Assembly (NCBI GenBank): GCA_024399065.1 | Contig: JAKSIB010000007.1 | Coordinates: 62,001 to 126,000 of the forward strand | Direction: 5' to 3' | Length of the DNA: 64,000 nt | Origin: Fibrobacter sp. | GTDB taxonomy: Bacteria; Fibrobacterota; Fibrobacteria; Fibrobacterales; Fibrobacteraceae | Shown: positions 2,712 to 41,911 of the stretch, in pieces | How the letters are laid out: every line of letters begins with the position of its first letter | Position numbering within the stretch: the first letter of the stretch is position 1 | The notes under the pieces: model-generated | Told to the model about the DNA's origin: nothing | The model's input: only the letters and a program-made list of their open reading frames with translations | The model's database searches: none | Made by a program: the position numbers and the translations under genes

Positions 2712-4445
2712 TTAGGTCAATGCGCCGATTTCTTCGTCGGTGATCGCAGTCATCTTCGGCTCGTAGGTGTTGCCCGTGAACTCCTCGGTTGCCACCTTCT
2801 TGGAGCCACTATACAGGCATCCGTCAGTACCGACGTAGGCGGTGTCGTGGGAGTAGGTCTGCGGGTTCGCTGCCTGGCTTGTCGCGCCGACCAGGAAAAT
2901 CTTGGAGCTGGTATCGGTAGAGCCTGCGGTGTTCTTGGTGTCGTGGTCGTTGTCCTGCTGGGTGAACGTGAAGGAGGTGCCGTCAAGACGGGTGGCCGTG
3001 AAGGTGGTTCCGTTACGGCTGATGTCCACGATGGGATTGTTGGCCGCACGGTCAGTTCCAAGGAGCTGGTACTGTGTTCCATCGTACATGAGGTACGCGA
3101 TGTCGCCTGCGCCGATTACGCCAGCCGCGATGGCCGCACCCTTGTTGAAGATTGCCTTCGCGCCCTTGGAGTTGATGTTCAGGGTTGCGTTGGCGTCCAC
3201 TGCATTGGTGAACTTGACCGCAACCACACCGCCCTTCACAAGTTCGTAGTTGGTGAGGGAGCCAACCTTTGCAGCCGTGCCGGTTGCGGTGCTGCAGGTT
3301 GCATAGCCCTGGCCGAGTTTCTCGTTCGTGTATGTGGTGTTGGAGTCGGGTGACCACAGGCCAGCGGAGGTTACGCCGACGATATGGCCCTTGGCGTCAC
3401 GTTTCAGTCCGGTCACAACCTGGATGAGGCTTCCGCTGGATGCAGTGGGAAGCTGGGTAGCGGAGCCACCGGACGCGTTGATTGCAGCGCTTGTGTCCTC
3501 GGCGGGGGTGTAATGGTTGCCGACGCTAGTAACCTTGGTGTCGGTGTTGGGGTTGGCGGGGATCTTGCCGGAGGTTACGGACACCCCTACAACGTGGCCC
3601 TTTGCGTCCCTCTTGAGCTGGACACCCTTGACGACGTCGATGGACCATGCAGCGGTCGCTCCAGTGGCACTTGCGGAGAGCTGCGCGTCGGAGTCCTCTG
3701 CCGGGGTGTAGTGGTTGCCTACGGATGTCACCTTGGTATCGGTATCGGTGAACACGGCGTTGGACGGGACGCTCTTGCCGATGGTGAGCCCGCTGTCCTT
3801 GATCTTCTTGCCGGTGGTGCCGTCGAACACAGCGACGCGTGCATCGGTTGCACTTGCAGGGCCGATGACTACGCCGTCGAGGTTGCCCTGGATGAAGTCC
3901 CAGCTTGCGGCGATGGTTGCGTAGTTGTTGGCGGTTGCAGCGGCGGTGTTGTCGGTGTTACAGATGAGCATGTCGCCGATTTCGACGGCCACGCCATCGA
4001 TGAAGCCCTTGGTGGTGACCTTGTATGTCCATCCCTTGCTTGCCGCAGGGGTCAACGAGCCGTAGCCTCCCGTACCCTTGGCTGCGCCAGCGAGGGTGCC
4101 CTTGTAGACCATGGCGTCAGCCTCCGCCATCTTGTCGGAGATGGCCGTGTTGACCCACGCGGTCGTAGCAATCTGCGTGGTGTTCGTGCCAGCGGCGGCT
4201 GTGGGAGCGGTAGGCGTGCCAGTCAAGGCAGGGCTTGCAAGGGGGGCCTTTTGGCCAAGGTGAGTGGTAAGGTTTGTGACCTGGCTCTCGCTGATTGCGA
4301 TGTTGCCATAGGTAACCTTGCCGTCCTGATATCCGGTCACGGTCTTGCTTGCGCTCGGGCTGTTAGCCGTCACTCCGTTGCTGATGAATGTCTTTACTTT
4401 GGACCAGAAGGTCTGCAAGCCGGAAAGGTCTAGGTATTTTGCCAT
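2712..4445 (-). CDS. Long tail fibre protein with internal repeats, 577 aa
   Basis: Starts with the shared module MAKYLDLSGLQTFWSKVKTF, then carries repeated fibre segments: TKVTSVGNHYTPAED occurs twice (around residues 245 and 305) and LKRDAKGHVVGV / LKRDAKGHIVGV occurs twice. Ala, Thr and Gly are abundant. Base composition is distinctly more GC-rich than the baseplate genes at 6-13 kb, which suggests that the fibre genes were acquired separately. Likely a trimeric fibre that binds the host surface. Confidence 0.8.
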   Translation of the reverse strand: MAKYLDLSGLQTFWSKVKTFISNGVTANSPSASKTVTGYQDGKVTYGNIAISESQVTNLTTHLGQKAPLASPALTGTPTAPTAAAGTNTTQIATTAWVNTAISDKMAEADAMVYKGTLAGAAKGTGGYGSLTPAASKGWTYKVTTKGFIDGVAVEIGDMLICNTDNTAAATANNYATIAASWDFIQGNLDGVVIGPASATDARVAVFDGTTGKKIKDSGLTIGKSVPSNAVFTDTDTKVTSVGNHYTPAEDSDAQLSASATGATAAWSIDVVKGVQLKRDAKGHVVGVSVTSGKIPANPNTDTKVTSVGNHYTPAEDTSAAINASGGSATQLPTASSGSLIQVVTGLKRDAKGHIVGVTSAGLWSPDSNTTYTNEKLGQGYATCSTATGTAAKVGSLTNYELVKGGVVAVKFTNAVDANATLNINSKGAKAIFNKGAAIAAGVIGAGDIAYLMYDGTQYQLLGTDRAANNPIVDISRNGTTFTATRLDGTSFTFTQQDNDHDTKNTAGSTDTSSKIFLVGATSQAANPQTYSHDTAYVGTDGCLYSGSKKVATEEFTGNTYEPKMTAITDEEIGALT

Positions 4446-30479: not shown

Positions 30480-30512
30480 GGCAAGGAATATAAAAAAGAA
30501 TAAAAAAAAGTG

Positions 30513-30552
30513 AAAAATTTTACCACAACCTATTGACAATGGTAAAATTTTT
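30513..30552. promoter_or_regulatory. Early operator: 13-bp perfect inverted repeat and promoter
   Basis: AAAAATTTTACCA (30513-30525) and TGGTAAAATTTTT (30540-30552) are exact complements separated by 14 bp. Two more TGGTAA half-sites lie at 30562 and 30582. TTGACA at 30533-30538 lies in the centre and can serve as the -35 element of the rightward early promoter, with GTTTAT (30557-30562) as -10; a protein bound to the repeat would cover it. Confidence 0.75.
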
Positions 30553-30568
30553 ATCTGTTTATGGTAAT

Positions 30569-33476: not shown

Positions 33477-33713
33477 ATGACCAACGCAGTAATCAGGCTC
33501 CAGGGAAAGACCCACAACGAAACGAATTATGTGGTATCCATATTCATCGATGGCGAAGGCAAAATCAGCCATACCGAAGTATGCGGAAAACCTTGCCGCG
33601 CCGTAAAAGAAACCATCGACAACCTCGGCGCAATCAAGTCCAGCAATGTCAACGGAATTTGCGACGCAATCCGACTCAAAATGGCAACGCACAACGAATA
33701 TGTCAAAGGATAA
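33477..33713 (+). CDS. Hypothetical early protein, 78 aa
   Basis: Compact alpha/beta sequence: VIRLQGKTHNETNYVVSIFI, GKISHTEVCGKPCRAVKE, NVNGICDAIRLKMATH. GGGGG precedes the ATG. Its 3' end overlaps the next start by 14 nt. Lies between SSB and an exonuclease, so a nucleic-acid role is possible; no motif allows an assignment. Confidence 0.55.
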   Translation: MTNAVIRLQGKTHNETNYVVSIFIDGEGKISHTEVCGKPCRAVKETIDNLGAIKSSNVNGICDAIRLKMATHNEYVKG

Positions 33714-33906
33714 GAATCATACACCGTGGACCACTTCTGAAGTCGCCATTCTAAAGGCTGGCGTGATTCCGGAAGGGCGTACAATGCGAGCCTGCAGGAC
33801 CTTCTGCTGGAGGCACGGAATCTTTTGGGCCGGCAAGAAAACTTACGACAACAACATGAACCTCTTACAAAGGATAAAGAAAAATGCGAAACATCCTCAT
33901 GATTGA
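33700..33906 (+). CDS. Small putative DNA-binding protein, 68 aa
   Basis: ATG at 33700 (MSKDKNHTPWTTSEVAI). The pattern PWTTSEVAILKAGVIPEGRT then ACRTFCWRHGI resembles a SANT/Myb-like or GcrA-like HTH: W-T-x-x-E followed by a second helix. Overlaps the exonuclease start by 23 nt. Confidence 0.5.
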   Translation: MSKDKNHTPWTTSEVAILKAGVIPEGRTMRACRTFCWRHGIFWAGKKTYDNNMNLLQRIKKNAKHPHD

Positions 33907-34444
33907 TATCGAGACCACCGGCACCAAGCCTGGCTGCAAGGTGCTTTCCATCGGAGCCTTCGGCTTCAACGAAGACGGCCAGCAGGTAAGTTTCTATGAA
34001 CGAATCAATCCGGAACAGCTTGCCAAGGAAATGTTCTTTGACGAACCCTCCACCATGGAATGGTGGCGCAAGCAGGACGAATCCGTAATGCTGGAAGCCT
34101 TCGGCGGCGAGAAGGGCCCTGCAGAAGTCCTGAGCGAATTCAAGCAGTTTTTCTACAAGAACTTCAACCCCGGCCGCGGCAGCTGCAAGTTCACTGTGTG
34201 GAGCTGCGGCATTGATTTCGACTTCCCGATCCTTGGCGAACTTTTCGCAAGAACCGGCGTCTCTCCCCTGTGGAAGCTCTGGCAGCAGCGCGACTACCGC
34301 ACCATCAAGGAACTGTTCCCCGAAGTAAAGGCCAACGAAGGCAACGTCGAGAAGCACAATGCCCTGGAAGACGCCAAGGCACAGATGCGCGGACTCCGTC
34401 ATTTCTTTGGTCTGCAGCTCGCTCCCGCAAAGAGCATCCAGTAG
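33884..34444 (+). CDS. DEDDh 3'-5' exonuclease (RNase T/ExoX-like)
   Basis: 186 aa. Exo I motif ILMIDIETTGTKPG (D and E of DEDD), Exo II in the WSCGIDFDFPILGEL segment, and Exo III NALEDAKAQ preceded by KH, giving the H and D of the DEDDh type. Exonucleases of this phage group act in proofreading or recombination. The family is the DUF5051-like phage exonucleases. Ends 7 nt before the structured RNA candidate. Confidence 0.85.
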   Translation: MRNILMIDIETTGTKPGCKVLSIGAFGFNEDGQQVSFYERINPEQLAKEMFFDEPSTMEWWRKQDESVMLEAFGGEKGPAEVLSEFKQFFYKNFNPGRGSCKFTVWSCGIDFDFPILGELFARTGVSPLWKLWQQRDYRTIKELFPEVKANEGNVEKHNALEDAKAQMRGLRHFFGLQLAPAKSIQ

Positions 34445-34451
34445 AATATAG

Positions 34452-34620
34452 CCCTGGCGGGCACAACACAACAACAAAACAAAAACACACTAGATGTCGG
34501 CGCCCTGCAACTCAGGCCCCAGCATTGAATTACACACCCCGCCAGGGTTTCAATTTAGCCCGATGGACGCATCTGATCTAAGTCATTGAGTCCTCCTATT
34601 GGTTGTGTTGTACCGCGTCC
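34452..34620 (+). ncRNA. Candidate structured RNA with pseudoknot topology
   Basis: CCCTGGCGGG (34452-34461) pairs perfectly with CCCGCCAGGG (34538-34547). ACAACACAAC (34463-34472), one base further on, pairs perfectly with GTTGTGTTGT (34602-34611) outside the first helix. The order a-b-a'-b' is that of a pseudoknot. GGACGC (34565-34570) can also pair with GCGTCC (34615-34620), and ATTGAA/TTCAAT (34524, 34549) offers an alternative to the first helix. No gene fits into the 210-nt gap. It could be a leader that controls the next gene or a stand-alone RNA. Confidence 0.45.
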
Positions 34621-34654
34621 GGAGGGCAATTTTTTCAACAAAAGGAACCCAATC

Positions 34655-35329
34655 ATGAACAGTGCAAAAGAAAAGCACATGAACGAAATCATTCACGAGA
34701 CCGCCAGCAAGTTCGCTGCAATGAGCAAGGTCATGAGCAACGATATCAAGAGCGGATACGCAAAACTTTGCTGCATCTGGATTGAAAACGGTAGCAAGAC
34801 CGCCACTGCATTTTCCCACCACATCGGATGTGCAACCAAAATCGAGCGTTTCTGCCAGGAAGCCGAAAACGATTACAACGAATGCATTGAGCTTACCGCG
34901 AACCACGCAGGCCTTATGCACATCCAGTATGCCAACGGCTACGCTCTGGTAACCAGCAAGAACTACGACGAATTCCTCAGCAAGAATGGACGCCCTATTT
35001 CCGAAGATGGCGAATGGAAAAACTTCGAGTACATCAACTGGAAAAATGTACTCCCGGAAATGGCGGTTTGCAGCAAGGCCATTGATCACGGAAAGATGTT
35101 CGACCCGAAGCTCCTCGTAATCCTTGACAACGTCAAGAAAACCTGCCCGTACAACGATTTCTATGCAAGCGTCCAGGAACGCATGGTCTGCAGCGAAAAC
35201 ATGGAAACCTGCGTTGCAGCATACCCTGACATGATCCTTGTCGCATACCCCATCAAGCACGGCTCGGACGAAACGAGTTCTGATCCCTCCATCGACATGA
35301 AAGAAGAATACCGCTTCTTCAAGGACTAG
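34655..35329 (+). CDS. Possible divergent sliding-clamp-like protein, 224 aa
   Basis: ATG at 34655 with AAGGA upstream. The C-terminal half reads like the last domain of beta-clamp-like phage proteins: INWKNVLPE (compare FPNWRxVIP), MFDPKLLVILDNVKK, and DMILVAYPIKHG, where clamps have IVMPMRL. The N-terminal half (ANGYALVTSKNYDEFL) would match the preceding domain (compare a DGxRLA region). The protein is shorter than a bacterial clamp (about 370 aa). A clamp role is an inference from this pattern only. Confidence 0.4.
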   Translation: MNSAKEKHMNEIIHETASKFAAMSKVMSNDIKSGYAKLCCIWIENGSKTATAFSHHIGCATKIERFCQEAENDYNECIELTANHAGLMHIQYANGYALVTSKNYDEFLSKNGRPISEDGEWKNFEYINWKNVLPEMAVCSKAIDHGKMFDPKLLVILDNVKKTCPYNDFYASVQERMVCSENMETCVAAYPDMILVAYPIKHGSDETSSDPSIDMKEEYRFFKD

Positions 35330-35330
35330 G

Positions 35331-35867
35331 ATGCGAAAGGAACGCACGAAGTACGGCTGCAAGACTTTCACGGTCAAGGAACTGCAGGATTTGCTTCCAA
35401 GGCTCGACTGCGACCGTGAAGAAGCCTTGAAAATCGGCGAAAGCATCGGAATGACAAAGCATGCAGTCGATACGCTCAGGAGCCTGCTCGGTTTCACAAA
35501 GAAGACTCCAGACATCATTCCGGAATCCACCCTGGACAGAGTAGTCGAAATATTCCTGGACAATCCAGACAAGAGCGCCTACGAACTGTTCAGGGAGTAC
35601 AACGGCGAACTGAAACTTGCCTGCTACCAAAAGTTCTACGAAATCCTAAGGCGTCGTGGAATCGAGAGCAACCGTAAACGAGACTACTGGTCCGTTTTCA
35701 AGGACAAGAAACTCCTGGACCTTAGGGACAACAAGAAAATGACATATCCGCAGATCCACGAGATCATGCCAGAAAGAACCATAAGCGCCCTTCAACTCCG
35801 ATACGCAAAACTAAAAGGTTATATCGCACCAAGCAAAAGGAACAAAATCAATGAAAACGCAGCTTGA
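35331..35867 (+). CDS. Putative HTH/SANT-type DNA-binding protein, 178 aa
   Basis: Charged protein with helices; residues 1-60 carry TVKELQDLLPRLDCDREEALK and MTKHAVDTLRSLLGF, and residues 115-165 carry a SANT/Myb-like pattern YWSVFKDKKLLDLRDNK, MTYPQIHEIMPERTISALQLRY, ending in a basic tail. GGAT stands just before the ATG. Overlaps the ParB-like gene by 17 nt, so the two are probably translated together and might act as partners. Confidence 0.55.
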   Translation: MRKERTKYGCKTFTVKELQDLLPRLDCDREEALKIGESIGMTKHAVDTLRSLLGFTKKTPDIIPESTLDRVVEIFLDNPDKSAYELFREYNGELKLACYQKFYEILRRRGIESNRKRDYWSVFKDKKLLDLRDNKKMTYPQIHEIMPERTISALQLRYAKLKGYIAPSKRNKINENAA

Positions 35868-41838: not shown

Positions 41839-41911
41839 TAGTGCCAGAGGGACTCGAACCCTCGTTGCCGGCGTGAGAGGCCAGTGTCCTAGACCACTAG
41901 ACGATGGCACC
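41839..41911 (-). tRNA. tRNA-Glu (CUC)
   Basis: A cloverleaf folds on the minus strand from 41911 to 41839: acceptor GGTGCCA with TGGCACT, D-arm with the GTCTAG start typical of tRNA-Glu, anticodon stem CTGGC/GCCGG with loop CTCTCAC (anticodon CTC), and T-arm GAGGG-TTCGAGT-CCCTC. CCA is not encoded. TATATT lies about 25 nt upstream (41941). The 3' end faces the prophage, so it is a good candidate for the attachment site, and the first/last acceptor pair (G-U) may come from the phage copy. Confidence 0.9.

Follow-up and report, generated by a model that had tools for sequence, protein, structure and literature searches.

What is formed by two long pairings that interlock in an intergenic gap of a Fibrobacter prophage early operon, a pseudoknot switch or something else? 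The gap, in the 64-kb stretch of DNA analyzed here (the window), spans 210 nt from the stop of an exonuclease gene (34444) to an ATG at 34655. Pairing a joins CCCTGGCGGG (34452-34461) with CCCGCCAGGG (34538-34547), and pairing b joins ACAACACAAC (34463-34472) with GTTGTGTTGT (34602-34611). Both are exact, and one base (34462) separates their first halves, just as an initial annotation had described. The third pairing (GGACGC 34565-34570 with GCGTCC 34615-34620) and the alternative hairpin (GTCCTCC 34590-34596 with GGAGGGC 34621-34627) that it claimed were also found in the sequence. When the region was shuffled 20,000 times with its dinucleotide composition kept, two interlocked perfect 10-bp stems never arose, and even one such stem arose in only 1.3% of the shuffles; given the compositions of the loops, the 10-bp loop-loop match of b with b' alone has a P of about 0.01. 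Yet 4 of 60 shuffles of the whole window also contained an interlock somewhere, and homologues were therefore needed as the arbiter. As set out below, the two pairings are best read as two tandem hairpins, and the flagged sequence is part of a previously uncatalogued structured RNA element found in unrelated Fibrobacter phages. The parts at the locus are as follows.

33884..34444, plus strand: upstream gene, DnaQ/RNase T-like 3'-5' exonuclease, Rv2179c-like (PF16473, E=1e-36; phrog_255 exonuclease)
34450..34549, plus strand: unit 1, the 5' hairpin (12 of 12 pairs formed in the stem)
34450-34461/34538-34549, plus strand: unit 1 stem, pairing a:a' plus two pairs
34463..34472, plus strand: arm b, ACAACACAAC, an A/C-rich single-stranded loop motif of the family (ACACAA is enriched in family loops), within the 76-nt loop of unit 1
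34493..34526, plus strand: inner hairpin of unit 1, predicted from the minimum-free-energy (MFE) fold, window clade only (in L049 a U-G pair becomes U-A, consistent with pairing)
34558..34627, plus strand: unit 2, the family's conserved element (supported by covariation and by the covariance models R1 and R2)
34558-34561/34624-34627, plus strand: P1 of unit 2
34562-34564/34621-34623, plus strand: tandem G.A/A.G plus U.G of unit 2
34565-34570/34615-34620, plus strand: P2 of unit 2
34602..34611, plus strand: arm b', GTTGTGTTGT, inside the loop of unit 2, window clade only (missing from all other members tested)
34628..34635, plus strand: short U-run, AATTTTTT, 3' of the element
34655..35329, plus strand: downstream gene, 224 aa, not part of the element (the "clamp" gene of the initial annotation)

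The host prophage encodes contractile-tail genes (sheath, baseplate). A long inverted repeat at 30505-30560, at the start of the early operon and beside a repressor-like gene, probably represents operators with divergent promoters, and a tRNA-Glu gene near the right end of the prophage (41839-41911) is a possible attachment site.

Small indels aside, three more distinct copies are at least 95% identical: G054 (the same sequence as the IMG/VR contig L048), L047 and L049. All comparisons between distinct copies gave 0-4 changes per 175-183 nt of the noncoding segment and 5-9 changes per about 72 four-fold sites of the adjacent exonuclease gene, the element being the slower of the two (Fisher P 0.002-0.03); G054 and L047, for example, differ at 0 of 175 positions in the element region and at 5 of 72 four-fold sites. 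The few changes among these close copies fall outside helices or preserve pairs, and L049 has a G-C to G-U change in the unit 1 stem. In L047 and L049 the downstream gene of the window is missing and another gene (at window 35331) comes directly after the RNA, so the presence of the RNA does not depend on the supposed clamp gene; elsewhere the RNA is followed by different genes again. The proposal that it controls a clamp gene thus finds no support, nor does the identity of that gene, which has no Pfam or PHROG match, is not recognizably a clamp and, used as a query, retrieved no relatives from viral and genome contigs. In L052, which lacks the RNA at this place, no more than about 27 nt separate the exonuclease gene from the gene at window 35331. 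Just past the exonuclease stop, the divergent relatives L041 and L036 carry in place of the element a single 11-bp hairpin (GCCCGGCGGGG..CCCTGCCGGGC and GCCCGCTCGTG..CACGAGCGGGC); these were rejected as copies of the element, as each occurs only once in the genomes of the family and lacks the core.

The decisive comparison came from divergent members. A covariance model built from the window clade alone, without an imposed sequence pattern (R1), found full-length homologues in G034 (E=1.4e-5) and L051 (E=2e-7), and weaker matches in G084 and G038. The unit 1 stem of L076, L051 and L083 is a different 12-bp helix, fully paired, with seven positions changed on both sides, and the third pairing becomes GGCG(A)GC:GCCGCC or GGGCG:CGCCC in divergent relatives. 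The compensatory changes that the initial annotation had proposed to look for in homologous prophages are therefore present in a:a' and in the third pairing. The interlocking pair fared differently. Arm b is conserved in L012/L076, L051 and L083, but its partner is gone there, and b' is absent from every member tested outside the window clade. Thus, of the four arms, a and a' are replaced by another paired stem, while b is kept as an unpaired loop motif without its partner, an outcome named beforehand as the one that would speak against the pairing. In L076, L051 and L083 the loops are no more complementary to each other than expected by chance (P 0.45-0.67), and the MFE structures of the relatives are simply two hairpins, leaving no sign of the suggested switch. 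An H-type pseudoknot or switch calls for compensation in both helices; a:a' is compensated and b:b' is not kept, and with these observations we reject the pseudoknot as a conserved feature. It is very improbable that a:a', b:b' and an alternative rod control translation of the next gene, even though b:b' is perfect in four distinct sequences of the window clade, an 8-nt deletion beside b leaves it intact, and the nested rod and the two-hairpin fold of the window differ little in energy (-56.3 against -55.2 kcal/mol): the missing b', the two-hairpin folding of the relatives and the differing downstream genes all weigh against it. A loop-loop contact specific to the window clade is possible.

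What is conserved is unit 2, which belongs to an RNA family found in Fibrobacter phages (covariance-model match of 72.1 bits, E=2e-18); in the window it is preceded by unit 1, an all-Watson-Crick/wobble hairpin of similar plan. The family core reads GCC-GAU-GGNNGCA ... ACC-GCNNCC-GGA-GGC. Its 5' half consists of P1 (GCC/GGC, 2-8 bp), the tandem G.A, A.G and U.G, P2 (GGNNGC/GCNNCC) and an A; P2 is a covarying 6-bp upper helix above the closing helix with its tandem G.A/U.G. There follow a small hairpin in many members and an A/C-rich, G-poor loop (11% G) that carries the motif ACACAA/CAACAC; the 3' half has often ACC, then P2', GGA, P1' and a short U-run. Among the distinct members, at least 29 in number, ACACAA occurs in 17 of 29 loops (4.0 expected from shuffles) and GUAAAC in 8 of 29 (0.6 expected), and a run of at least three U begins about 3-8 nt past GGAGG in 25 of 29. 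A unit measures about 70-110 nt. The window, L076, L051 and L083 have two hairpins, and most other members show one unit.

Many further matches were retrieved with a pattern derived from the core of the divergent members. As a guard against circularity, every pattern match with GCA after the variable dinucleotide was taken as a subset: the NN positions are complementary in 18 of these 19 matches, in seven combinations, and in 23 of the 143 remaining ones. Two-sided changes numbered 35 cells in 24 aligned members, where shuffles gave 13.3 and none of 500 reached 35, and 85 on 54 distinct rows, where shuffles gave 31; all slid-structure controls failed the same test. The invariance of the CCGATGG and CCGGAGG boxes is partly imposed, since the search pattern fixed both, and model matches obtained without the forced pattern include CCAATGG and a lost ACC. 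Pattern matches in other phyla are mostly chance, with complementarity at background level, and were not accepted as members. The structured RNA that the initial annotation had placed in this early operon is accordingly borne out by covariation and, as described below, by context.

With covariance models the element was found in 21 of 111 Fibrobacteraceae genomes and in many IMG/VR contigs, and a phylum-wide scan added only two marginal matches; one of the members comes from Fibrobacter sp. UBA1765. The element belongs to no Rfam 15 family. At the gathering threshold, the window and eight loci gave only tRNAs; at E<=10 the window element gave one unrelated 16-bit chance match; and at E<=0.1 six loci gave tRNAs and one sub-threshold match overlapping a tRNA. 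BLAST of the element against phage records found no match, and a text search of open-licence papers gave nothing specific on a noncoding RNA of Fibrobacter prophages. Mimicry of a CRISPR repeat was rejected, as no repeated match to the element occurs in the genome that carries it, and so was an origin from tRNA, as ARAGORN and Rfam call none within it.

Orientation was read from the strand of the neighboring genes by codon scoring, because orientation from the longest ORFs is misled by long antisense ORFs. The window itself has two on the minus strand over real genes (33527-34477 and 34583-35572; 316 and 329 aa), likely artefacts of composition that can mislead strand calls. On the best-scoring coding strand, members are sense to 25 of 25 upstream and 24 of 26 downstream neighbors. 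They sit mid-operon, separating cistrons of early operons for replication, recombination or transposition, or directly after tRNAs. At ten loci (L104, L050, L096, L279, L283, L284, L281, L091, L355 and L443) no more than a few nucleotides separate the tRNA 3' end from the element. Their neighbors differ: the element stands behind the exonuclease in the window, behind ParB in L129, behind SSB-tRNA in L284, before an N6 methylase in L270, and, in Mu-like Fibrobacter prophages, exactly between the genes of a MuA-like transposase and a MuB-like AAA ATPase (L264, 113-2509). Many phages carry the element twice, in some cases as a tandem pair (G038, G055 and G039), and several copies per phage occur, for example in L087, L105, L443 and L397. 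In L050 a tRNA-Ser(UGA) (3622-3713) lies between the exonuclease gene and the element, which marks this gap as a recurrent site for RNA genes. Another conserved intergenic RNA, apparently structured, follows the element in tRNA-bearing phages (GGCGAGGCGGCTTGTAGGAACTCCATTTTAC..ACCGCC..GGCGGCATA..; L281 1762-1900, L105 333-475, L093 4538-4690, L283 1730-1860), for which L281, L105 and L283 gave no Rfam match.

Proximity to SSB, exonuclease, ParB and transposase genes, together with the inverted repeats, could suggest a site acting as DNA (origin, recombination or partition) or a mobile palindromic repeat. This is the most improbable reading of all: the U.G and tandem G.A are invariant within a covarying helix, the element is always sense to transcription, and the host genome has no second copy.

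Downstream-gene independence, the multiple copies per operon and the tight abutment on tRNA 3' ends favor a role in cis in transcript processing. Judging from sequence, and with rather less than even confidence, we infer as our best guess a cis-acting intercistronic RNA that would serve processing and end protection of the polycistronic early transcript. The transcript would be cut near the element, by tRNA-processing enzymes at tRNA 3' ends and by a double-strand-specific or other host ribonuclease away from them; the helix would then shield the new end of the neighboring messenger, and the single-stranded ACAACAC loop might be a docking site for a host factor, a bound factor being favored by conservation of the unpaired motif. 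Intercistronic RNase III sites in T7-type early mRNAs are long irregular duplexes cleaved in an internal loop. They resemble the element in being on the sense strand, between early cistrons and several per operon, but the element combines a short helix with a large, A/C-rich loop in which motifs are conserved. Against intercistronic punctuation, conservation of the loop motif exceeds what purely mechanical end protection would require, and some members precede another structured RNA rather than a gene, which also fits a free RNA.

Such a free RNA would be a phage small RNA that acts in trans after its release from the operon or tRNA transcript, with the ACAACAC loop binding a protein or a target RNA. 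This reading is rather unlikely, but would agree with the position behind tRNAs, the conserved unpaired ACACAA and GUAAAC, the U-run on the 3' side and persistence while flanking genes change. It accords less well with several differing copies in one operon and with the lack of any promoter-like site just upstream of 34450. The U-run, moreover, is usually offset several nucleotides from the stem and is thus a poor terminator; an intrinsic terminator was likewise rejected on this offset and on a loop of tens of nucleotides. The free RNA might be in miniature what GOLLD and ROOL may be, structured phage or prophage RNAs of unknown function that are often near tRNAs (PMC12286853). The element shares with them phage encoding and nearness to tRNAs, but they have about 600-800 nt and elaborate folds, whereas the element is far shorter, is multicopy, also lies between protein genes and has no Rfam match.

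Two tandem hairpins in early operons, in sense orientation and spread over unrelated phages of one host group, also recall the putRNA of HK022, a short RNA of two stem-loops (~70 nt) in an early phage operon that works without phage proteins (PMC9378689). By analogy, and from a comparison of descriptions, the element could, as part of the nascent RNA, act in cis on RNA polymerase to counter termination or pausing. We consider this quite unlikely: putRNA lies behind early promoters and has RNA polymerase as its target, whereas the element is mid-operon, not just after an early promoter, and is a single unit in many members. We infer that intercistronic punctuation ranks ahead of both the free small RNA and the put-like antiterminator.

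Beyond its role in any one operon, we tentatively suggest that the element is a host-adapted RNA module that passes from one Fibrobacter phage to another, unrelated one, be it temperate with a contractile tail or Mu-like, and comes to lie within early operons and after tRNA genes. It would recruit one host factor through its helix with tandem G.A pairs and its conserved ACAACAC loop; if true, the element would represent a new class of RNA, and its role at the level of the operon would be new as well. For RNA biologists the element offers a new family backed by covariation, in which the mutants worth making are evident, and it bears on whether dedicated RNA structure punctuates phage tRNAs and early genes. 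Since one RNA element occurs in early operons across replication strategies within phages of one bacterial family, it points to host machinery common to them, which these phages would exploit.
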